Of a stretch of DNA of 31,986 nucleotides, positions 7,220 to 31,186 are shown in pieces. Numbering within the stretch: the first letter of the stretch is position 1; every line of letters begins with the position of its first letter. The stretch is from a virus. Location: positions 1-31,986 of the IMG/VR virus record IMGVR_UViG_3300031339_000028; one strand, written 5' to 3'. The notes under the pieces are model-generated. The model saw only the letters and a program-made list of their open reading frames with translations, was not told the DNA's origin and did no database searches. The translations under genes were made by a program, and so were the position numbers.

Positions 7220-8086
7220 ATGACAGAACTCATTTGGGACCAGGTCGGCACCCGTTTCTACGAAACTGGCGTTGATCATGGCGTCCTCTACCTCCCTAAC
7301 GCGCAGGGTATTTACAACAATGGCGTGGCCTGGAATGGTCTCACCAGCGTTTCTGAGTCGCCTAGCGGTGCAGAGCCCAGCGCAATGTACGCTGACAACA
7401 TCAAATACCTCAACATTTACTCGGTTGAGGAATTTGGCGCAACAATTGAAGCTTACACCTACCCAGACGAGTTTGCTCAGTTTGACGGTCTTGGCGTTCC
7501 GGTTGCGGGTGTTACCGTTGGTCAGCAGGCCCGTCGTAGCTTTGGCTTGTCTTACCGGACCCGTCTTGGTAACGATCTTCAGGGCGATGACTTTGGTTAC
7601 AAGCTTCACCTTATCTACGGCTGCACAGCTAGCCCGTCCGAGAAGGCTTACGCTACGATCAATGACTCGCCTGAGGCAATCACATTCAGCTGGGAAATCT
7701 CGACCAGCCCTGTTGCTGTTGCAGGAAGCCGTCCTACGGCAATCCTGACGGTGGATTCGACCAAGGTTGATCCTTCAAACCTGACCGCCCTTGAGAACCT
7801 TCTCTATGGAACCGTTGGCACTGATCCGTCGCTTCCTCTCCCGGATGCGGTGGTCACTATGTTCTCTGGCGCTCTTACTTTGGCAACACCTGCGTCGCCG
7901 ACGTTCGATCAGGGTACGAACACGATTACCATTCCTACGGTTACCGGAATCACCTACCGCATCGACGGTGTGGAAGTTACGGGTACCGTGGTTATCACAG
8001 AAGACACGGTTGTCACGGCTACGGCCGACGACGGCTACGTCCTTCCTGCAGTCACCGACGACGATTGGTTCTTCACCTACGTCTGA
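7220..8086 (+). CDS. Major tail tube protein with C-terminal appended domain
   Basis: 288 residues with a strong AAGGAG ribosome site. Residues 1 to about 215 form the tail tube fold: LIWDQVGTRFYETGVDHGVLY, VAWNGLTSVSE, IEAYTYPDEFAQFDG, FGLSYRTRLGNDLQG and FSWEISTSPVAVAG, all typical of tail tube proteins in Gram-positive siphophages. Residues about 221-288 form a separate beta-rich domain (PASPTFD ... GITYRIDG ... DTVVTATADDGY ... DDDWFFT) that also ends the capsid protein. Such appended domains usually decorate the outer tail surface and can bind host glycans; that function is inferred. Codon use is strongly biased to C-ending codons, as in the capsid gene, consistent with high expression. 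A strong terminator follows. A paralogue lacking the appended domain lies at 9637-10428. Confidence 0.9.
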   Translation: MTELIWDQVGTRFYETGVDHGVLYLPNAQGIYNNGVAWNGLTSVSESPSGAEPSAMYADNIKYLNIYSVEEFGATIEAYTYPDEFAQFDGLGVPVAGVTVGQQARRSFGLSYRTRLGNDLQGDDFGYKLHLIYGCTASPSEKAYATINDSPEAITFSWEISTSPVAVAGSRPTAILTVDSTKVDPSNLTALENLLYGTVGTDPSLPLPDAVVTMFSGALTLATPASPTFDQGTNTITIPTVTGITYRIDGVEVTGTVVITEDTVVTATADDGYVLPAVTDDDWFFTYV

Positions 8087-9636: not shown

Positions 9637-10428
9637 ATGACTAGAATTGTTTGGGATCGAGTTGGAGACAGAGTTTATGAAGGCGGAATTTCCAAAGGAG
9701 TTTTGCACTTAACCAATGGTGAAAGTGTTCCTTGGAATGGTCTTAAAAGTGTAAGTCAGAAAGTTAATAACACTACTAAACCAATTTACTTTGATGGAGT
9801 TAGAGTCAATAACTACGTTGACCTAGGGGACTTCTCAGGAACTATCACTGCAATAACTTACCCAGAAGAAATGAGTGCAGTAGAGGGCTTAGCCTCATTT
9901 AGTCGTGGATCATACGTTGGAAACCAGCAACCTGAATTGTTTAACCTTTCGTACGTTACTAATGTGGGTACCGACTTAACCGCAGACAAAGGGTATAAAA
10001 TTCATTTACTCTATAATCTTACGGCAATTCCCTCGGATAAATCTTATGCGTCGTTTGATTCTTCGTTTAAAACTACGGACTTTACCTGGGAAGTTCACGC
10101 AGTTCCTGAAGAAGTAGCCGGATTTAGGCCAACCGCAGAATTTGTATTTGACAGCAGAAAAGTTACTGCCGAATTTTTAGGAATTTTGGAAGATTTAATT
10201 TACGGGACCGATTTAAAACGACCCAACTTTCCTACAGTAAACGAATTAACCGATCTAATCCTGCAATACTTCATACTTGAGATTATAGATAACGGTAACG
10301 GAACATGGACCGCCACTACATCATTTGACGATCTCATTATTATGGAATCGCTTACCGAGTTTACCATTCAAGACATTGAAGCAACATATTTGTCAGACAC
10401 TCTTTATGAAGTGTCTAGCAACCGATAA
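9637..10428 (+). CDS. Second tail tube protein paralogue without the appended domain
   Basis: 263 residues with an AGAGGAGG ribosome site. It aligns along its length with the major tail protein at 7220: IVWDRVGDRVYEGGISKGVLH versus LIWDQVGTRFYETGVDHGVLY, VPWNGLKSVSQ versus VAWNGLTSVSE, ITAITYPEEM versus IEAYTYPDEF, FNLSYVTNVGTDL versus FGLSYRTRLGNDL, and GYKIHLLYNLTAIPS versus GYKLHLIYGCTASPS. The C-terminus differs: about 50 residues (LEIIDNGNGTWTATTSFDD ... YEVSSNR) replace the shared capsid/tube domain. Codon use is A/T-rich and not biased for high expression. It may be a minor tube protein, a tail-tip adaptor, or an anchor for the adhesin genes that follow immediately. Confidence 0.85.
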   Translation: MTRIVWDRVGDRVYEGGISKGVLHLTNGESVPWNGLKSVSQKVNNTTKPIYFDGVRVNNYVDLGDFSGTITAITYPEEMSAVEGLASFSRGSYVGNQQPELFNLSYVTNVGTDLTADKGYKIHLLYNLTAIPSDKSYASFDSSFKTTDFTWEVHAVPEEVAGFRPTAEFVFDSRKVTAEFLGILEDLIYGTDLKRPNFPTVNELTDLILQYFILEIIDNGNGTWTATTSFDDLIIMESLTEFTIQDIEATYLSDTLYEVSSNR

Positions 10429-21287: not shown

Positions 21288-21584
21288 ATGTTTAATAGAA
21301 CCGCAAAAAAGAATGAAGCCGCTCAGCTTCAACTTACCATCACTCGCCTCATTGAGGAGATGGACCTCTATGGCCCAAACACCCCCGAGTATACTGAAGC
21401 TTTTCAGCACCTTGAGAAGATCTACAACCTAAAGACTATGAATAGTCCCAGCAAGGTAGATCCGAACACAATGCTGTTAGTAGCAGGCAACTTGCTGGGT
21501 ATTGCGATCATCGTTGTCTACGAATCAAGAGGAGCACTGGTAGGTAAAGCCACGAGCTTCATCAACAAGCCCACTATAAAGTAG
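21288..21584 (+). CDS. Small membrane-associated conserved phage protein
   Basis: 98 residues with GAAAGGAA before ATG, after promoter-like copy 1. The N-terminal part is a charged helix (QLQLTITRLIEEMDLYGPNT, EYTEAFQHLEKIYNLK), and the C-terminal part has one hydrophobic segment (TMLLVAGNLLGIAIIVVYES). The segment KVDPNTMLLVAGNLLGIAII is one I recall from small proteins of actinobacteriophages that travel with DUF6353 proteins. Function is unknown. A strong hairpin terminator begins 17 bases after the stop. Confidence 0.85.
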   Translation: MFNRTAKKNEAAQLQLTITRLIEEMDLYGPNTPEYTEAFQHLEKIYNLKTMNSPSKVDPNTMLLVAGNLLGIAIIVVYESRGALVGKATSFINKPTIK

Positions 21585-22571: not shown

Positions 22572-22671
22572 TGACATAGTATTTGTTATTGCGGTGTTTC
22601 TTGTTTTTGGCGCAGGAATGTTAATAGACCTCAAGATTAATCGACCAACCAAAGAAAGTAGTGATGACTAA
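22564..22671 (+). CDS. 35-residue membrane mini-protein
   Basis: GTG at 22564 overlaps the previous gene's end by 8 bases; the frame closes at TAA 22669-22671, overlapping the next gene's ATG by 8 bases. The product begins MSNDIVFVIAVFLVFGAGML and is one hydrophobic helix followed by a short polar tail (KINRPTKESSDD). Tight overlaps on both sides and a sensible membrane helix support it, but its length makes the call moderate. Confidence 0.5.
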   Translation: MSNDIVFVIAVFLVFGAGMLIDLKINRPTKESSDD

Positions 22672-23407
22672 CATAATCAAACAATTAGAGTCGGTGCTAA
22701 AACATAATTCACCGGCGATACTAACTGCGTTTGGTATCAGCGGAGTAGTTACTACCGCATATTTGACTGGTAAAGCTTCGTTTGACGCTTGTGACACAAT
22801 CAGAGATCACGAAGCTGAGCACGGTATTCCTGACACTCGTAAAGAGCTGTTTAAGACCCGTGCTGAGCTTGTATGGCCGAGCTATATTCCAGCTGGGCTA
22901 TCTGGCGCCATCACTATTGCGTGCATCGCAAGCGCAGCTAGAGTAGGCTCAAGACGCACAGCTGCAATCACGGCGGCATATTCTATCAGTGATAGAGCAT
23001 TTGCAGAATACCGTGAGAAAGTTGTTGAACGTCTTGGCGAAAACAAAGAAAAGGCTATTCGAGGAGAAATTGCACAAGATACTATTAATAAGAACCCTCC
23101 AAGGCAAGACATCATTGTCTCAGGCATTGGTGCTACACTAACGCTTGAAACTTACACAGGGCGATATTTTAGTAGTGACATGGAATCGCTTCGTAAAGCA
23201 CAAAACACTATTAATGCTCAATTGAATTCACAAAACGAGGCTACGCTTAGTGATCTCTACTATTTGATTGGGTTGCCAGACACTTCAGAGTCAGCAAGAC
23301 TTGGATGGGACGTAGATCGTCTCTTAGACCTAGAATTCCTGGCTGTAATGACTGAAGACGGTAGACCATGCATGGCGTTTAACTACAACTACGTCAAACC
23401 CCTCTAA
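22664..23407 (+). CDS. DUF6353-type membrane protein, copy 1
   Basis: 247 residues from ATG 22664 (a GTG three bases earlier is also in frame). It has a first hydrophobic segment with NSPAILTAFGISGVVTTAYL, a second with IPAGLSGAITIACIASAARV, then a conserved amphipathic helix SRRTAAITAAYSISDRAFAE followed by YREKVVERLGENKE. This order (NSP, membrane helix, PS, membrane helix, SRR-TAAY, YRxxVxExxGExKE) is shared with the protein at 25248 and fits the DUF6353 family of actinobacteriophages. The C-terminal domain contains TLSDLYYLIGLP and GW nine residues later, a motif also in the 24380 and 25248 proteins. The role is unknown; a membrane-located virion, entry or host-modification complex is possible. 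Confidence 0.85.
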   Translation: MTNIIKQLESVLKHNSPAILTAFGISGVVTTAYLTGKASFDACDTIRDHEAEHGIPDTRKELFKTRAELVWPSYIPAGLSGAITIACIASAARVGSRRTAAITAAYSISDRAFAEYREKVVERLGENKEKAIRGEIAQDTINKNPPRQDIIVSGIGATLTLETYTGRYFSSDMESLRKAQNTINAQLNSQNEATLSDLYYLIGLPDTSESARLGWDVDRLLDLEFLAVMTEDGRPCMAFNYNYVKPL

Positions 23408-23441
23408 TACAAACCTATATTTACAAGAAAGAATCTCTAAA

Positions 23442-23975
23442 ATGCTTAAGCGCACTATCAAGTACACCGATTTCAACGATAACGAAGTGGAAGAAGAATT
23501 CTACTTCAACATGAGTAAGTCGGAACTTGTTGAAATGGAAGTCAGTTACAAAGACGGTTTCAAGGAGACCCTCGAGCGAATTATTGCTACAGACGACAAT
23601 GCAGCGCTGATCAAAGAGTTCAAGAAGATCATCTTGCTGTCATACGGCATCAAGTCCGAAGACGGTAAGCGCTTTGAGAAGTCAGACGAAATCCGGAAAG
23701 CGTTCTCTCAGTCAAGCGCATACAACGAATTGTTCATGGAGCTGGCTACTAATGATGGCCTTGCCGCTGAGTTTATCAACGGCGTTATGCCTCGATCGCT
23801 CATGGACGAAGTTGTCAAAGAGGCAGGCGTAGACCCATCTGCTGAAAACGCTTTGCAGACAGCATTAGAAGCCAGTTCAAACGTTTCAGGGACTGCTACC
23901 TCTCCCACGCAAGAAGAACTTGCAGCTGCTCAGCGAATTATCGACAGCCAGAACGCCGGCAATTCAGGAATCTGA
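23442..23975 (+). CDS. Tail assembly chaperone-like protein
   Basis: 177 residues with CAAGAAAG upstream. Characteristic pieces are MLKRTIKYTDFNDNEVEEEF followed by YFNMSKSELVEMEVSYKDGF, then LIKEFKKIILLSYGIKSEDG, FSQSSAYNELFMELATNDG and AAEFINGVMPRSLMDEV. I recall this pattern in Gram-positive siphophages as a protein usually labelled tail assembly chaperone. In those phages such genes sit near the tape measure; here it is about 5 kb downstream, between DUF6353-type and other membrane genes. No tape measure or -1 frameshift partner follows. The C-terminal 40 residues are Ser/Ala/Thr-rich. The family pattern is well recognised; the function is known only by annotation custom and should be treated with care. 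Confidence 0.78.
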   Translation: MLKRTIKYTDFNDNEVEEEFYFNMSKSELVEMEVSYKDGFKETLERIIATDDNAALIKEFKKIILLSYGIKSEDGKRFEKSDEIRKAFSQSSAYNELFMELATNDGLAAEFINGVMPRSLMDEVVKEAGVDPSAENALQTALEASSNVSGTATSPTQEELAAAQRIIDSQNAGNSGI

Positions 23976-23977
23976 CG

Positions 23978-24003
23978 CTCGCAAAATTTACAACCAGTAT
24001 AAC
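23978..24003 (+). promoter_or_regulatory. Promoter-like element, copy 4
   Basis: CTCGCA at 23978-23983 begins 2 bases after the preceding stop, then a 14-base spacer with TTTACAACC and TATAAC at 23998-24003. The next ATG is at 24039. It fits copies 1 to 3 in spacing and in placement right after a stop codon. Confidence 0.68.
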
Positions 24004-24038
24004 GAATACCCTAGCCACTAATACAAAGGATTTTAATT

Positions 24039-24356
24039 ATGGAAAATACCCCTGAAGAAGTTGACCTGCCTCAACCGAGACTTCCAATCACTCGATTGAT
24101 TGTTCGCACGCTAGCGGGTCAAGGCACAGCGTATATCGTTGGGCAAAGCATTACTACGCTAGTTGGTTCGCCGGAAACCAAGGTTCAAAAGATTTTGGAT
24201 TTCTCTGGCCGAATGGCAATTGGTATGTTTGTGACAAACATAGTAAAGAAAGATGTCGATAATGTGATTGACGACTACGTTACTCTGTATGACGAGTCAA
24301 AAATTGTTATTGCTGATATCAAGACCCAAATCGACCAGGCCGAACAAGGCCTCTGA
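24039..24356 (+). CDS. Small helical protein of the membrane block
   Basis: 105 residues; ATG follows AAAGGATTT. After an acidic start (MENTPEEVDLPQPRLPITRL) there are two moderately hydrophobic helices (LIVRTLAGQGTAYIVGQSIT and FSGRMAIGMFVTNIVKK) and a charged C-terminal helix (VDNVIDDYVTLYDESKIVIA). The pattern is one I associate with small conserved proteins beside DUF6353 genes in actinobacteriophages. No catalytic motif. It is the first gene after promoter-like copy 4 and is followed 23 bases later by the next gene. Confidence 0.78.
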   Translation: MENTPEEVDLPQPRLPITRLIVRTLAGQGTAYIVGQSITTLVGSPETKVQKILDFSGRMAIGMFVTNIVKKDVDNVIDDYVTLYDESKIVIADIKTQIDQAEQGL

Positions 24357-24379
24357 GTTTTACATAATTTAGGAGAGAC

Positions 24380-25033
24380 ATGGACGAATTTCCAGCAAAT
24401 AGCAAGACAAATAAGGCGCCAACTGAAGGTAAGCCGAAGCAAAAGGCTTTACCCAAAGCAGATGTAAAAGAGAAAGTAATCACTGGAGAAGCAATTCAAC
24501 GAAAAAAGCCCCTTGGGCGTCGATTCAAAGACGTGTTCCTTGGTGCAGACATCAAAGGAGCGTCATCGTATATTGTAGCTGACGTGTTGTTCCCGGCGGT
24601 TCGTAACATGGTTGTCGATGCCACTACTAAAGGTATTGAGCGATTTGTGTACGGCGAAACCGGTGGGCGACGACCCCCAGGTCCAGGACGACCCAGGACT
24701 ACATACCACTCACCTGTAGAGCGTTCTCGTGGTCGAGGAGTAATGCTTCCCGATCAGCCGCCACACTACGGCAGGCCTACAAGACGCCCAGACCGTCCCA
24801 GCGGAAACGAAATTGTCTTGGGATCTCGTAACGAAGCAGAGCTTGTCTTAGAAAGCCTCCGAGATGTAATTGACAAGTATGAGGTTGCTACGGTTTCCGA
24901 TTTTCATCAACTAGTTGGCCTACCCGCTAGCTATGTTGATGAGAAGTGGGGCTGGACTAACCTGTCACACGTTGACGTGCAGCAGATTAGAGAAGGCTAT
25001 TTGATCAACATGCCTTCTCCAGAGCCAGTATAA
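24380..25033 (+). CDS. Basic Pro/Arg-rich protein with the shared C-terminal motif
   Basis: 217 residues with AGGAGA before ATG. Residues 1-50 are Lys/Pro-rich and probably disordered. Residues about 50-90 form an amphipathic helix region (IVADVLFPAVRNMVVDATTK, GIERFVYGE). Residues about 95-140 are Arg/Pro/Gly-rich (RRPPGPGRPRTTYHSPVE), and the C-terminal domain (about 150-217) has EAELVLESLRDVIDKYEVAT followed by VSDFHQLVGLP and GW nine residues later. I recall this layout (helix, basic low-complexity linker, ATVxDFxxLVG domain) as a conserved uncharacterised protein in Gram-positive siphophages. The C-terminal motif links it with both DUF6353-type proteins. Stop and next start overlap (TAATG). 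Confidence 0.8.
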   Translation: MDEFPANSKTNKAPTEGKPKQKALPKADVKEKVITGEAIQRKKPLGRRFKDVFLGADIKGASSYIVADVLFPAVRNMVVDATTKGIERFVYGETGGRRPPGPGRPRTTYHSPVERSRGRGVMLPDQPPHYGRPTRRPDRPSGNEIVLGSRNEAELVLESLRDVIDKYEVATVSDFHQLVGLPASYVDEKWGWTNLSHVDVQQIREGYLINMPSPEPV

Positions 25034-25251
25034 TGGATAGTAAAGATCAACAAGAATTACACGAAGCATACGAACGGTTCAAGTCGTTCAGAGATAGCAC
25101 CCGACAATCAAAGGGTATCCAAGCAGTGATAGATGCTTGGAACGATAAAGGCCCACACCCACTTTATCATGTTGCCGCTCAGGAACAACTCCGAGCGCAT
25201 TGGCCTGCACTTGCAAGCGCACTAGATAATCTTACAAAGGAGCAATCATGA
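25033..25251 (+). CDS. Small helical protein of unknown function
   Basis: 72 residues translated by coupling to the previous gene (TAATG) and overlapping the next by ATGA. The composition is polar and helical (MDSKDQQELHEAYERFKSFR, HVAAQEQLRAHWPALASALD). There is no membrane segment and no Cys. Its fixed place between two proteins sharing the same C-terminal motif suggests a partner or adaptor, but no family is recognised. Confidence 0.72.
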   Translation: MDSKDQQELHEAYERFKSFRDSTRQSKGIQAVIDAWNDKGPHPLYHVAAQEQLRAHWPALASALDNLTKEQS

Positions 25252-26117
25252 AATTTATTCCAGAAGCAGTGACACAGAGTATTGGAAAGCAGTCTCTGGT
25301 TTTGCAGCAGAACTCGCCTCGAATCTTGTTTGTAGCGGGCATTGCCGGTGTTGTAGGCAGCACAGTTCTTGCCTGTCGAGCAACACTTAAGGTCCATGCC
25401 GTCATTGACGAAGTGGAAGCAGAAGTTGCTGGGGTCAAGAAGGACCTTGGCGAGACTGAGGGTTACAACAAAGACTTGGTGTACGTTTACGCCAAGGGAA
25501 TCACAAAGATTGGTCGTCTCTACGGCCCGTCGGTTGTTGTGGGTAGCGTGTCTATTGCTGCCCTCACAGGATCGCACGTTCAGCTCTCTCGCCGCAATGC
25601 GGGTTTGACGGCTGCTTACGCTGCGGTTTCCAAGGCATACGAAGACTACCGGATTCGTGTCCGAGAAGAGGTCGGCGAAGAGAAGGAACTGAATCTGTAC
25701 CACGCAGCAGTTCTGACTGACTTGGTCGACGAGAACAAGAAGAAGGTTCCGACACTTGTTTCTGACCCGAACAAGTTCTCGCCCTACGCAAAGTTCTTCG
25801 ACGAGTACAACAATAACTGGCAGAAGAACCCGGAACTCAATCGCTTGTTTGTGCAGGCTCAGCAGAGGTATGCAAACGATCTGCTTCTGACACGAGGGCA
25901 CATCTTCTTGAACGAAGTTTACGACATGCTTGGCATTGAACGTTCGTCTGCTGGCTCTGTTGTGGGCTGGACTCTTACACGTGACGGTGGAGAAGGCGAC
26001 GATTACGTTGACTTTGGCATGTTTGAAGCAGCAAACGCAAACTTCATTAACGGCACCGAACGAAGCATCATTCTTGACTTCAACGTTGATGGCGTCATTT
26101 ACAACAAGTTGGGATAA
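25248..26117 (+). CDS. DUF6353-type membrane protein, copy 2, codon-optimised
   Basis: 289 residues with an AAAGGAG ribosome site, overlapping the previous stop. It repeats the order seen in copy 1: NSPRILFVAGIAGVVGSTVL, then GPSVVVGSVSIAALTGSHV, LSRRNAGLTAAYAAVSKAYE and YRIRVREEVGEEKEL. The C-terminal domain has LNEVYDMLGIE and GW nine residues later, then an extra segment (DYVDFGMFEAANANFINGT, RSIILDFNVDGVIYNKLG). From about 25450 on, the codons are markedly C-ending (CTC, TTC, AAC, GAC, CGT), much like the capsid and tail tube genes and unlike its neighbours, suggesting a very abundant product. Family assignment is good; function is unknown. Confidence 0.86.
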   Translation: MKFIPEAVTQSIGKQSLVLQQNSPRILFVAGIAGVVGSTVLACRATLKVHAVIDEVEAEVAGVKKDLGETEGYNKDLVYVYAKGITKIGRLYGPSVVVGSVSIAALTGSHVQLSRRNAGLTAAYAAVSKAYEDYRIRVREEVGEEKELNLYHAAVLTDLVDENKKKVPTLVSDPNKFSPYAKFFDEYNNNWQKNPELNRLFVQAQQRYANDLLLTRGHIFLNEVYDMLGIERSSAGSVVGWTLTRDGGEGDDYVDFGMFEAANANFINGTERSIILDFNVDGVIYNKLG

Positions 26118-26120
26118 ACC

Positions 26121-26924
26121 ATGGAAACGGAAGAGATTACAGAAATTGTAGTCGATGAGATTCCATCACGAATTAGCTACATGCTCCAACAGCCGTGGGT
26201 TAAGCCTGCTGCTGTTGGGGCTGTGGCCTTCGCCGGTGGCGTTGGTATTGGCTATATTTGGGCTAAGCGGCGTTACACAAAGTTTTACGATGAGCCAGAG
26301 ACCGATCAAGAAGATCCTAATCAGCTGAGTCTGTTTGATCACTCTAGTGAAAACCTCCGTGAGCTGCTCGACGAACTCGAAGAATACGAGCGCCAAGCAG
26401 ACGAGCTTGAGTGTGCGCTAATCGAGTACACTCCAGAACTTGAGCAGGAGGCCGAAGACATTGTAGCTGAGATTGAGATTGAAGACGCACTGCTAGAAAT
26501 TTCAGACGACAAAGACGGAATTCGCAATGTCTTTGCTGGGACCAAAGGTTCGTGGAACCTCGAGCGGGAGCTTTCTACTCGCACATCAAATGCGCCGTAT
26601 GTAATTCATCTGGACGAGTTCGTTCTTGATGACATGGGGTATGAGCAGACCACAGTGGTGTATTATTCAGGGGACGATATTTTAGCCCTGCAAGATGATA
26701 CGCCAATGTACGACTACGAAAGCTTTCTTGGAGAGCTTAAGTTTGGTCACGGCTCAAACGACCCGTCAATTGTCTATATTCGTAACGAAGACCTCGAAGA
26801 AGAGTGGGAAGTCATGCTTCATCAAGGTCGATACGAGGTAGAAGTGCTTGGTCACACCATTGAAGCAGAGTACGAACGGAAAGCTCAGCTAAAGCATTCG
26901 CAAACTCGATTTAGAGACGAATAG
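26121..26924 (+). CDS. Membrane-anchored acidic protein
   Basis: 267 residues. One membrane helix lies near the N-terminus (KPAAVGAVAFAGGVGIGYIW, about 29-48), followed by AKRRYTKFYDEPE, a strongly acidic coiled-coil-like region (LRELLDELEEYERQADELEC), and a folded C-terminal domain with APYVIHLDEFVLDDMGYEQT, TVVYYSGDDILAL, FGHGSNDPSIVYIRNEDLEE and a final FRDE. The C-terminal pattern, FGxGSxDPxIVYIRNE, is one I recall from actinobacteriophage proteins next to DUF6353 genes. It probably faces the cytoplasm from an inner-membrane anchor. It starts 3 bases after copy 2 of the DUF6353 type and has only a weak ribosome site, so coupling is likely. Confidence 0.82.
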   Translation: METEEITEIVVDEIPSRISYMLQQPWVKPAAVGAVAFAGGVGIGYIWAKRRYTKFYDEPETDQEDPNQLSLFDHSSENLRELLDELEEYERQADELECALIEYTPELEQEAEDIVAEIEIEDALLEISDDKDGIRNVFAGTKGSWNLERELSTRTSNAPYVIHLDEFVLDDMGYEQTTVVYYSGDDILALQDDTPMYDYESFLGELKFGHGSNDPSIVYIRNEDLEEEWEVMLHQGRYEVEVLGHTIEAEYERKAQLKHSQTRFRDE

Positions 26925-26927
26925 CTT

Positions 26928-27461
26928 ATGGACGAGCCTATTGAAGAAGTATATTTCAATTGGCTGTACTCTAAAGTAGCATCAATAACCGTTCCGTCAA
27001 CCCCGTCGCTAACATACTTGCGGCTATTCAGAGCGCTGTATTCAACCGAATTCGTTTGGTTGATATCTGGCGACGACAACCGACTTGAAGAGGGTCTTGA
27101 GCTTCGGTCTACATTCTTACGAGAATCTAGGCTAGATCAAGACCCTCTTTGGTTTTCTGAGCCATGCTCAGTGTTAGAAACTCTAATTGCTTTTGCACAA
27201 GTGATTGAATTTGAGACTGAGTTGACCACTAAAGAGTGGTTCTGGATAATGCTAGAGAACTTGAATCTTGCATATTTGAGCGATAATCAGCTCGGTGTAG
27301 GTATCGTGTGTGAAGAGATTCTAAACACATTCATCTGGCGTTTGTATGACGAAAACGGTTTTGGAGGCTTGTTTCCTATAGAAAACCCTTGTGAGGATCA
27401 ACGAAACGTAGAAATATATTATCAATTTTGCGTTTACGTAGTTGAACACGACATCATCTGA
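26928..27461 (+). CDS. Conserved phage protein of unknown function
   Basis: 177 residues with a weak ribosome site, 3 bases after the previous stop. Distinctive parts are VYFNWLYSKV, YLRLFRALYSTEFVWLISGD, DNRLEEGLELRSTFLRES, PCSVLETLIAFAQVIEFE, TKEWFWIMLENLNLAYLSDN and the C-terminal GLFPIENPCEDQRNVEIYYQ. I recall the order 'YFxWL ... LLxxLxxTEF ... DNRxExGxxLR ... PCSVLExxxAxA ... WFWxMxxNLxL ... GLFPI' as a widely conserved, uncharacterised protein in siphophages of Gram-positive bacteria. It closes the accessory block just before the replication gene. No enzymatic motif is evident. Confidence 0.82.
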   Translation: MDEPIEEVYFNWLYSKVASITVPSTPSLTYLRLFRALYSTEFVWLISGDDNRLEEGLELRSTFLRESRLDQDPLWFSEPCSVLETLIAFAQVIEFETELTTKEWFWIMLENLNLAYLSDNQLGVGIVCEEILNTFIWRLYDENGFGGLFPIENPCEDQRNVEIYYQFCVYVVEHDII

Positions 27462-27472
27462 GGGGAGGTTTA

Positions 27473-30400
27473 ATGGATTTCTATAAGATTCGAGTCAATG
27501 CTCCAAGAGATGGCCAACCAAAGATCTTCCCTGACTGGATTGTCGGGAGAACAACCGATCTAATGGTTCGGGGAAGATCTTTCTATGGTGTTTGGGATGA
27601 AGCAAAGGGTTTGTGGTCAACGGACGAGTACGACGTACAAAGACTAGTTGACAACAACCTACACTCTTACAACAAAGAACACGGAGGCTCTTATGCAGTA
27701 AGTGACTTGAAGAATTTCGGTACTGGGTCCTGGGCCTCCTTTCGGAAGTACCTACAAAACATTAGTGACAACAGCCATCAGCTCGATAGTAAATTGGTCT
27801 TTGCTAATACAGAAGTAAAGAAAAACGACTACGCAAGCAAAAAGCTGCCTTACTCTCTCGAAGACGGCTCTCATGAGGCATGGGACGAGCTATTAGACGT
27901 TCTATATTTGCCTTCAGAGCGAGACAAGATTGAGTGGGCAATTGGCGCTGTGGTGTCCGGCGATTCAAGGTTCTTGCAAAAGTTCTTTGTGTTTTACGGC
28001 CCTGCAGGCAGTGGTAAATCCACAATCTTGAACATCATTGACAAATTGTTCGAGGGATACACCGCTGCGTTTGACGCTAAGGCTTTGGGTGGAAACAACA
28101 ATGCGTTTGCAACTGAGGTGTTCAAATCAAACCCCCTGGTTGCAATTCAACACGACGGAGACCTTTCAGGCATTTCCGACAACACGAAGCTGAACTCAAT
28201 CGTTTCCCACGAGGAAATGACCATGAACGAAAAGTACAAGCCTAGCTACAGTTCTAGGGTTAATGCTATGTTGTTCATGGGCACAAATCAGCCTGTGAAG
28301 ATCAGCGATGCCAAGTCAGGCATTCTTCGTCGACTCATTGATATTCATCCGTCAGGTTCTGTTGTCGAGCCAAAGAAGTACGCAAAGTTGATGACTCAGA
28401 TTTCGTTTGAATACGGGGCGATTGCAAAACACTGTCTTGATCGCTACAAAAAGATGGGTAAAAGTTATTACAACGCTTACCGCCCCGTTGAGATGATGTT
28501 GCAGACTGACGTCTTCTATAACTTTATAGAAGCAAACTTCGACATCATCAAGAAACAAGACGGCATTGCGTTAAAGCAAGCTTATGCTTTGTATAAAGAG
28601 TACTGTGCTGAAACCGGCATTGACAAGCTGCTTCCCCAATACAAGTTCCGAGAAGAGTTACGTAATTACTTCGAGAGGTTTGAAGACCGGGCAGTAGTTG
28701 ACGGCGTTAGCGTCTACAGCTACTATTCTATATTTAAGCCAATTATACCAGTAGTGTCTTTTAATAACGATGAAGAGGAAACGTTGGTATTCGATCAAAC
28801 TGTCTCAGTGTTTGACCAGTTGTATCCAGACTTGATAGCACAATACGCTAAAGACAGCGGGTATCCTGGCAAGAAATGGGACAGAGTAACTACAACTTTG
28901 TCTGAACTTGACACCACTAAGCTTCACTACGTTAAAGTACCAGATCATCACATCGTCATTGACTTTGATTTGACTAACGAAGACGGTGAAAAAGACTTAG
29001 ACATTAATATTCATCATGCCTCAAAGTGGCCTGCTACATACGCAGAACTGAGTAAGAGCGGTAAGGGTTTGCACCTGCACTACTTCTACACAGGAAACGT
29101 TAGCGAGCTGGCGTCAGTATATGACGTTGGCATCGAGGTCAAGACTTTGCTTGGAGATTCTTCTCTTCGGAGAATGCTTTCTAAGTGCAACGGTCTTGAC
29201 ATAGCTACTTTGACAAGCGGTCTACCCATAAAGGAAAAAATTATGCTTGACAATACAGGTGTACAAAGCGAAAAAGCCTTGCGTAATTTAATCAATCGCA
29301 ACTTGGCTAAAGAAATTCATCCGGGCACCAAATCGTCAGTAGATTTCATCCACAAGATCCTAGAGGATGCTCACGCAAGCGATCTGCCTTATGACGTTTC
29401 AGACATGCGGGCCAAGATCGTATCGTTTGCGGCGAGGAGCTCTAATCAATCCGCAGTAGCACTCAAGGTTGTGCAAACAATGCGGTTTGCTAGTGCAGAT
29501 CAAATGGAAGTCAGCGAAGATGCCAAGGGAAAGCCAATTACGTTCTATGACGTAGAGGTTTACCCTAATCTCTTTGTTGTTTGTTGGAAATACGCTGGCG
29601 ATGCTAATGTCGTAAAGATGATTAACCCCACGCCTGCTGAAGTAGAAGAGTTGTTTTCGCTTAAGTTGGTAGGATTCAACAATCGCCGATACGACAACCA
29701 TATTCTGTACGCTAGGTTCTTAGGGCGGTCTAATGAACAGCTTTATGAACTTAGTTCTAAGATCATTGATAGTGACCACAAAGTTTTGTTTGGTGAGGCG
29801 TACAATCTTTCGTATGCCGATATTTACGATTTCAGTTCAAAGAAACAAGGACTTAAGAAATTTGAAATTGAGCTTGGTATCCACCATATGGAAATGGATC
29901 ATCCTTGGAATGAACCAGTCCCTGAAGAGAAGTGGGACGCAGTTGTTGAGTACTGCGCAAACGACGTCAAAGCAACAGAAGCGGTGTTTAATGCACGAAA
30001 ACAGGACTTTGTCGCCAGAGAAATTCTATCAGACCTGTCAGGACTTTCGGTAAACCACACTACACAGAACCACACAGCAAAGATTATATTTGGCGGTGAG
30101 AAGCATCCTCAAAAAGACTTTGTCTATACAGATCTAAGTGAAGTGTTTGACGGGTATACTTTTGACGGCAAGCAAAGCACCTACCGAGGTGAAATTACTG
30201 GCGAGGGTGGTTACGTATATTCTGAACCGGGAATGTACCAAAACGTAGCTCTCCTCGACATTGCCAGTATGCATCCTACCACTATCGAGGTGCTCAATGT
30301 GTTTGGGCCATACACTGAGAATTTCAGTGCGCTTAAAGAAGCACGTATGGCGATCAAACGGTCCGATTACGCTACGGCAAAGACTCTTCTCGGAGGCAAG

Positions 30401-31186
30401 CTTGCTCCATATTTGGAAGATGATAAAGACGCCGAAGCACTCTCTTACGCATTGAAGATCGTGATCAACATTGTCTACGGTTTGACGTCGGCAAAGTTTG
30501 AGAATGCGTTCCGTGACAACCGCAACAAAGACAACATCGTTGCCAAACGGGGCGCACTGTTCATGATTGAACTCAAACATGCAGTGCAGGAAAAGGGTTG
30601 GACAGTCGCACACATCAAGACTGACTCTATCAAGATTCCTGACGCCACACCAGAGATGATTCAGTTTGTCACCGACTTTGGTAAGGAATACGGCTATGAC
30701 TTCGAGCACGAAGCAACATACGAACAGCTCTGCTTAGTAAATGATGCTGTGTACGTGGCTCGACAAGGTGACAAGTGGACTGCGGTTGGTGCACAATTCC
30801 AGCATCCGTATGTATTCAAGAAGTTGTTTACCAAGGAGCCAATTGAGTTTAGCGACTTGTGTTTGACAAAAAGCGTTGTGCAAGGCGCTATGTATCTTGA
30901 TTACAACGTAGACCCTTTGCGTAAGGTCACTGACTATCAGCATATTGGTCGAACAGGAAGCTTTGTTCCTGTCGTACATGGTGGCGCTACGTTGTGGCGG
31001 ATCAAGGACGACAAGAAGTACGCAGTTACTGGTACTAAGGGCTTCCGATGGCTTGAGCGTGAGCTTGCTGTAGAACGTGAAAAAGAAGACAAACTCGAAA
31101 TTGATATGACGTATTTCGAGAAGATGGCCGAAGAAGCAGAGAAAGCCATCGAGTACTTTGGACCGTTCAACCGGTTTACGGAATGA
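27473..31186 (+). CDS. Helicase - primase-polymerase-like - family B DNA polymerase fusion
   Basis: 1237 residues with a GAGGGGAGG ribosome site. Residues about 170-290 form a D5/SF3-type helicase: Walker A YGPAGSGKST (K182), a second acidic motif AIQHDGDLS (about 223-231), and a sensor-type MLFMGTNQP (about 266-274). Residues about 450-580 resemble an archaeo-eukaryotic primase: VIDFD (D497, D499) then SKSGKGLHLHYF (H534/H536). Residues about 690-840 are a 3'-5' exonuclease: FYDVE (D693, E695), GFNNRRYD (N736, D741), YCANDV (Y827, D831). Residues about 925-1055 are family B polymerase: LLDIASMHPT (D929), K995-x3-N999-x2-YG, and IKTDSI (D1051). The last motif has Lys where DTDS has its first Asp. 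This protein would carry out priming, unwinding and synthesis in one chain. Helicase and polymerase assignments are strong; the primase is moderate. Confidence 0.92.
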   Translation: MDFYKIRVNAPRDGQPKIFPDWIVGRTTDLMVRGRSFYGVWDEAKGLWSTDEYDVQRLVDNNLHSYNKEHGGSYAVSDLKNFGTGSWASFRKYLQNISDNSHQLDSKLVFANTEVKKNDYASKKLPYSLEDGSHEAWDELLDVLYLPSERDKIEWAIGAVVSGDSRFLQKFFVFYGPAGSGKSTILNIIDKLFEGYTAAFDAKALGGNNNAFATEVFKSNPLVAIQHDGDLSGISDNTKLNSIVSHEEMTMNEKYKPSYSSRVNAMLFMGTNQPVKISDAKSGILRRLIDIHPSGSVVEPKKYAKLMTQISFEYGAIAKHCLDRYKKMGKSYYNAYRPVEMMLQTDVFYNFIEANFDIIKKQDGIALKQAYALYKEYCAETGIDKLLPQYKFREELRNYFERFEDRAVVDGVSVYSYYSIFKPIIPVVSFNNDEEETLVFDQTVSVFDQLYPDLIAQYAKDSGYPGKKWDRVTTTLSELDTTKLHYVKVPDHHIVIDFDLTNEDGEKDLDINIHHASKWPATYAELSKSGKGLHLHYFYTGNVSELASVYDVGIEVKTLLGDSSLRRMLSKCNGLDIATLTSGLPIKEKIMLDNTGVQSEKALRNLINRNLAKEIHPGTKSSVDFIHKILEDAHASDLPYDVSDMRAKIVSFAARSSNQSAVALKVVQTMRFASADQMEVSEDAKGKPITFYDVEVYPNLFVVCWKYAGDANVVKMINPTPAEVEELFSLKLVGFNNRRYDNHILYARFLGRSNEQLYELSSKIIDSDHKVLFGEAYNLSYADIYDFSSKKQGLKKFEIELGIHHMEMDHPWNEPVPEEKWDAVVEYCANDVKATEAVFNARKQDFVAREILSDLSGLSVNHTTQNHTAKIIFGGEKHPQKDFVYTDLSEVFDGYTFDGKQSTYRGEITGEGGYVYSEPGMYQNVALLDIASMHPTTIEVLNVFGPYTENFSALKEARMAIKRSDYATAKTLLGGKLAPYLEDDKDAEALSYALKIVINIVYGLTSAKFENAFRDNRNKDNIVAKRGALFMIELKHAVQEKGWTVAHIKTDSIKIPDATPEMIQFVTDFGKEYGYDFEHEATYEQLCLVNDAVYVARQGDKWTAVGAQFQHPYVFKKLFTKEPIEFSDLCLTKSVVQGAMYLDYNVDPLRKVTDYQHIGRTGSFVPVVHGGATLWRIKDDKKYAVTGTKGFRWLERELAVEREKEDKLEIDMTYFEKMAEEAEKAIEYFGPFNRFTE

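Follow-up and report, generated by a model that had tools for sequence, protein, structure and literature searches.

Phage membrane proteins have been proposed as anchors of viral replication machinery, as in the case of p1 and p16.7 of phi29 (PMC4974454). Compared to the complex proposed here, the phi29 proteins are a work-alike only. First, phi29 uses protein-primed replication, whereas the locus described here encodes a primase-polymerase fusion. Second, p16.7 interacts with ssDNA, whereas the C-terminal modules described here are acidic. Third, two of the three proteins that carry these modules (A and B) are integral membrane proteins by hydropathy and in this respect resemble the p1/p16.7 type of scaffold, while the remaining one (C) does not.

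Two protein families bear directly on A, B, and C. DUF6353 (phrog_2152) has been described without a function; A and B match nearly its full model, at the C-terminal end of which the module lies, and C is no member of the family, yet has its last part. A stand-alone version of this end is found in phrog_19999-like proteins. C matches over its full length phrog_4079, which includes gp43 of Lactococcus phage 1706 and gp067 of ReqiPepy6 (the ReqiPepy6 record mentions the similarity to 1706 gp43) and has neither an assigned function nor a Pfam family. A relationship between the C-terminus of phrog_4079 and DUF6353 is unstated in the libraries searched, in which weak cross-matches are present, and a literature search found no paper naming DUF6353. 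These core genes are labelled only hypothetical or membrane in about 250 annotated phages and in prophage-like loci of many Clostridia. If three or more of the proteins carry one domain, families that had been separate and uncharacterized can be treated as one complex open to testing, and a membrane site of replication may be indicated in phages with a primase-polymerase fusion.

The gene block and its families

The window, that is, the whole stretch of DNA analysed, is a 31,986-base virus record representing a siphovirus-type genome fragment. It encodes a terminase (at 362), a portal (2138), a capsid-protease (4543), a major tail protein (7220), a 1,806-residue protein judged from its length and position to be the tape measure (12622), a minor tail protein (18898), and a holin (20851). 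The major tail protein family, phrog_2645, was matched twice, at 7220-8086 (CAI 0.75) and 9637-10428 (CAI 0.42), with very unlike codon use in the two genes.

The block under study lies on the plus strand. Its first gene, A (22661..23407, with a GTG start at 22661 and an ATG at 22664), encodes a 248-residue membrane protein by hydropathy and by its match to DUF6353/phrog_2152. T (23442..23975) is a tail assembly chaperone by its Pfam name (Phage_TAC_17, PF23803, E 1.5e-45) and stands far from the tape measure gene. S (24039..24356) is a small hydrophobic protein (phrog_7539) that is conserved in 56 loci and is without the module. C (24380..25033) is the 217-residue phrog_4079 protein (E 1.9e-55). 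B (25248..26117) is a DUF6353/phrog_2152 membrane protein of 289 residues. D (26121..26924; phrog_4695, with one N-terminal hydrophobic segment) and E (26928..27461; phrog_4678) both lack the module. The conserved run ends with the primase-polymerase fusion (27473..31186; phrog_4210 DNA polymerase). A small 72-residue gene (25033-25251) lies between C and B, and C, this gene, B, D, E, and the polymerase gene overlap or abut in the window. The small gene was rejected as a core member, as only two loci carry it. A scan of promoters and terminators gave no excess over shuffled sequences, and an NCBIfam search gave nothing near any cut-off.

A reading made from the sequence alone (the sequence-only reading) had called the first and third proteins DUF6353-type and had described the second as different in its N-terminal half. 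Both assignments were borne out. A matched PF19880 with 242.4 bits (E 6.9e-72; model positions 1-247 of 253) and B with 239.6 bits (E 4.9e-71; positions 1-251 of 253), each above the curated 25-bit cut-off, and C belongs to phrog_4079 without a Pfam match. PF19880 did not match the C protein of the window, and five of 65 C relatives matched it below threshold (best E 0.019). In a direct hhalign comparison, A and B aligned over 246 columns (100%, E 1.6e-39). A and B are thus full-length homologues, or paralogues, for which a common motif is expected; the new element is the link to C alone.

The C-terminal GW module

It is well supported, by sequence comparison and by predicted secondary structure, that the C-termini of A, B, and C are formed by a homologous alpha/beta domain of ~60-95 residues with a nearly invariant Gly-Trp (GW) pair. 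The putative module covers about residues 175-248 of A (23183..23404; placed by the motif and profile comparisons), 143-217 of C (24806..25030; motif, predicted structure, and profile comparison), and 194-289 of B (25827..26114; motif, predicted structure, and permutation test). In A, SDLYYLIGLP at residue 197 is followed by GW at 215 (23249-23308); in C, SDFHQLVGLP at 173 by GW at 191 (24896-24955); and in B, NEVYDMLGIE at 222 by GW at 240 (25911-25970). The strings and the spacing given in the sequence-only reading were exact, with GW nine residues past the last listed residue in each of the three.

Relatives were collected from 84 viral loci and 12 annotated phage regions, the ORFs of which were sorted into families from which clean profiles were built; 45 loci, nearly all bacterial contigs of a genome collection, were added later. 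GW was retained in 128 of 131 A, all 116 B, and all 114 C sequences, and the distance from the conserved glycine to GW was 11 residues in 125/131, 115/116, and 97/114 of them, respectively. A loose form of the motif occurred in 310 of 444 A/B/C sequences, compared to 2 of 9,658 other ORFs of the same loci; because it is nearly confined to A/B/C sequences, it is not a product of chance. Both outside strings are of the B type and come from loci in which D and E, but no C, were assigned. A further match in a Microbacterium contig (L142) was discarded as a short coincidence in an unrelated frame.

Profile searches linked the families in both directions. Among 6,406 ORFs, a non-iterated profile of A alone matched 28 C proteins (best E 1.5e-4) and a non-iterated profile of C alone matched 20 A proteins (best E 5.4e-4), in each case aligned at the motif and with almost no other matches. 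In profile-profile comparisons of the enlarged set, the A-C pair reached a probability of 84% (score 45.6) and the B-C pair 44% (score 35.9), while control pairs of neighbouring families scored at most 28.4. When the columns of the C profile were permuted 300 times, the observed A-C score of 43.2 stood against a permutation maximum of 22.2 and the B-C score of 33.4 against 24.9. The A-C similarity of the C-terminal regions is significant by this comparison, and the common C-terminal module that had been proposed from the motif is upheld. The direct B-C probability varied from 2 to 44% with the alignment used (2% with another B alignment) and is weak alone, so that the link between B and C rests on the permutation test, on A as an intermediate, and on predicted structure.

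Convergence of C and A/B on a short motif, in place of a common domain, would agree with an aligned cross-family stretch of only 34-38 columns and with the weakness of B-C alone. However, the observed scores lie far over the permutation null, the motif is specific among about 9,700 other ORFs, its spacing is near-fixed, and the predicted structural elements of C and B come in the same order; convergence is accordingly judged very improbable. The sharing of a module between DUF6353 and the unrelated family phrog_4079, as these comparisons indicate it, is new. Further carriers were sought by profile comparison among D, E, T, S, and the gene at 21288-21584, with negative results.

On sequence evidence, the module is portable. 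In Arthrobacter phage Paella, a 118-residue protein corresponds to the C-terminal part of B alone (L009:7889-8245), and the C module stands behind a different N-terminal region (L009:5320-6006). Another stand-alone B module is present in L137, and viral protein models of 99-131 residues match the end of B. The two proteins of Paella (genome of 113.7 kb) form an additional, incomplete set, located between A and the usual C-B pair (L009:3294-12559). A further C-like module was noted inside a different protein of D_HF5_2C (L010:15530-16057).

Predicted fold, charge, and membrane topology

The module is predicted to consist of a helix, a short strand, a second helix, a loop, the GW strand, and a hairpin. 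In the model of C, the last 75 residues (pLDDT mostly above 90) contain a strand, a helix at 150-167, a short strand, a helix at 172-179, a short helix, the GW strand, and a hairpin. The model of B (pLDDT 90) has a long helical hairpin (23-67 and 73-142), followed in the module by a helix at 195-216, a strand, a helix at 221-228, the GW strand at 239-242, and a later helix and strand. The predicted elements of C and B come in the same order, and at the level of secondary structure the two models thus do not diverge.

Foldseek gave no significant match to the PDB for C or B, VIA-align against solved structures gave weak matches only, and a profile search of PDB sequences gave nothing convincing. 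A winged-helix-like DNA-binding domain, through which A and B would tether DNA directly to the membrane, is suggested by the way the elements of C follow one another (helix, strand, helix, short helix, strand, hairpin) and by weak structural matches to LexA (Z 2.3) and other winged-helix proteins (Z 2.0-2.3). However, parvulin-type domains match about as weakly (four parvulins, Z 2.6-3.0, within the range of chance arrangements), no structural match is significant, and the would-be recognition helix has only about five residues. Furthermore, the modules are acidic on average in all three families, with mean net charges of -7.0, -6.5, and -5.7, which disfavors DNA binding. A winged-helix domain is judged improbable. 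The acidic charge points instead to docking, and a protein-protein docking domain is the most likely role of the GW module.

Hydropathy separates C from the other two proteins. Two hydrophobic segments were found in 108 of 132 A and 105 of 116 B sequences (residues 19-37 and 75-93 in A of the window), whereas 91 of 114 C sequences had no segment over the threshold. C is probably soluble or peripheral and not transmembrane. The description of three membrane-block proteins made from the window sequence holds by position and not by nature in the case of C; likewise, a membrane complex fits A and B with their two segments, while C looks soluble or peripheral. The positive charges of A and B show a slight, weak bias toward both ends being inside, in which case the module would lie in the cytoplasm. 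The N-terminal helix of C was weakly matched by small membrane-type proteins in two loci (L112:6816-7022, E 0.1; L014:7200-7409, E 0.006).

Gene order, codon use, and candidate functions

The order C-B-D-E is kept in nearly all actinophage-type loci. The bacterial contigs, mostly from Clostridia, have the order A(-A)-C-B-D-E, and the gene that comes next usually encodes a protein of 900-1,500 residues, taken by its position to be the polymerase. The run is interrupted in Lactococcus phage 1706 and in D_HF5_2C, where C, B, and the polymerase are separated by other genes. Among annotated phage records, C was found in 251, B in 252, and the polymerase in 253, from nearly the same organisms; A and E were not found in Lactococcus records at the sensitivity used. 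The capsid-protease has nearly the same distribution as the block, plus weak Streptococcus matches, and the co-occurrence with the polymerase is thus in part a mark of one phage lineage. That neighbouring genes kept together in phages of Actinobacteria and Firmicutes have a module in common fits a common partner or mutual assembly.

The gene order and the co-occurrence with the polymerase suggest that the block acts in the same process as the replisome. What the sequence-only reading had left as a complex of unknown purpose is narrowed slightly by this, in that the genes of C, B, D, and E are tightly packed in one run with that of the primase-polymerase. A possible though tentative reading is that the module is the docking domain of a membrane-anchored complex, with copies on A, B, and C, that holds the replisome at the membrane and has B as its scaffold. 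For A and B, the anchor would be a hairpin of two membrane helices, and their modules would face the cytoplasm, as hydropathy and the weak positive-inside bias suggest, and C would add another copy on a soluble or peripheral protein. The copies may meet each other or a common partner, and the assembly, made with D and E from the polymerase gene run, would hold the replisome at the membrane. A wider proposal is speculative and on balance doubtful. In it, the GW module would be a phage assembly domain of a new kind, by which three or four proteins, some in the membrane and some soluble, are joined into a replication platform bound to the membrane, as a core feature of a siphovirus lineage over Actinobacteria and Firmicutes hosts.

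Codon use points to B as an abundant scaffold of such an assembly. The remark that the codon bias of the third protein suggests large amounts agrees with its rank as second of 29 window genes, tied with T and near the major tail and capsid genes; the codon use of A and C is unlike that of the major virion genes. Over 83-95 actinophage-type loci, the codon bias of B also exceeded that of A, C, D, and E (p < 1e-6); in the bacterial loci, it did so for D and E only.

The strongest competing explanation is a role in virion assembly or DNA entry, because a tail-chaperone-like protein, T, lies in the block and correlates with B. A and B would then act in morphogenesis or in the particle, the module would dock on virion proteins, and T would act in that unit as a genuine tail chaperone. 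T stands between A and C in most actinophage-type loci as in the window, B and T share virion-gene-like codon use, and the distribution of the block is nearly that of the capsid-protease. The partial correlation of family distances was 0.49 for B-T and only 0.16 for B-C; these correlations are mixed as a whole, with A-B, A-C, and B-T supported and the B-C link unclear. However, the block comes after the holin and lysis-type genes, outside the tail run, and abuts the polymerase, and T was not found in the Clostridia loci. A weaker point is that the record of phage 1706 labels several proteins as structural, orf43 and orf51 not among them; no open virion proteome of Lactococcus phage 1706 or the related Arthrobacter phages was found in the literature. 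A virion role is considered rather unlikely.

Alternatively, the complex could alter the membrane of the infected cell, for example in superinfection exclusion or in the timing of lysis, which would suit two-segment membrane proteins in numbers near a holin gene. Typical accessory exclusion genes are not usually present in every member of a lineage with conserved order, whereas the genes of the block occur in essentially every phage of this lineage with their order conserved, and the defence library gave no match. Control of the envelope is held to be quite improbable, and replisome docking at the membrane is kept as the preferred, tentative reading. As for the number of A genes, many of the Clostridia loci among L100-L141 carry two, even three, DUF6353-A copies upstream of C and B.
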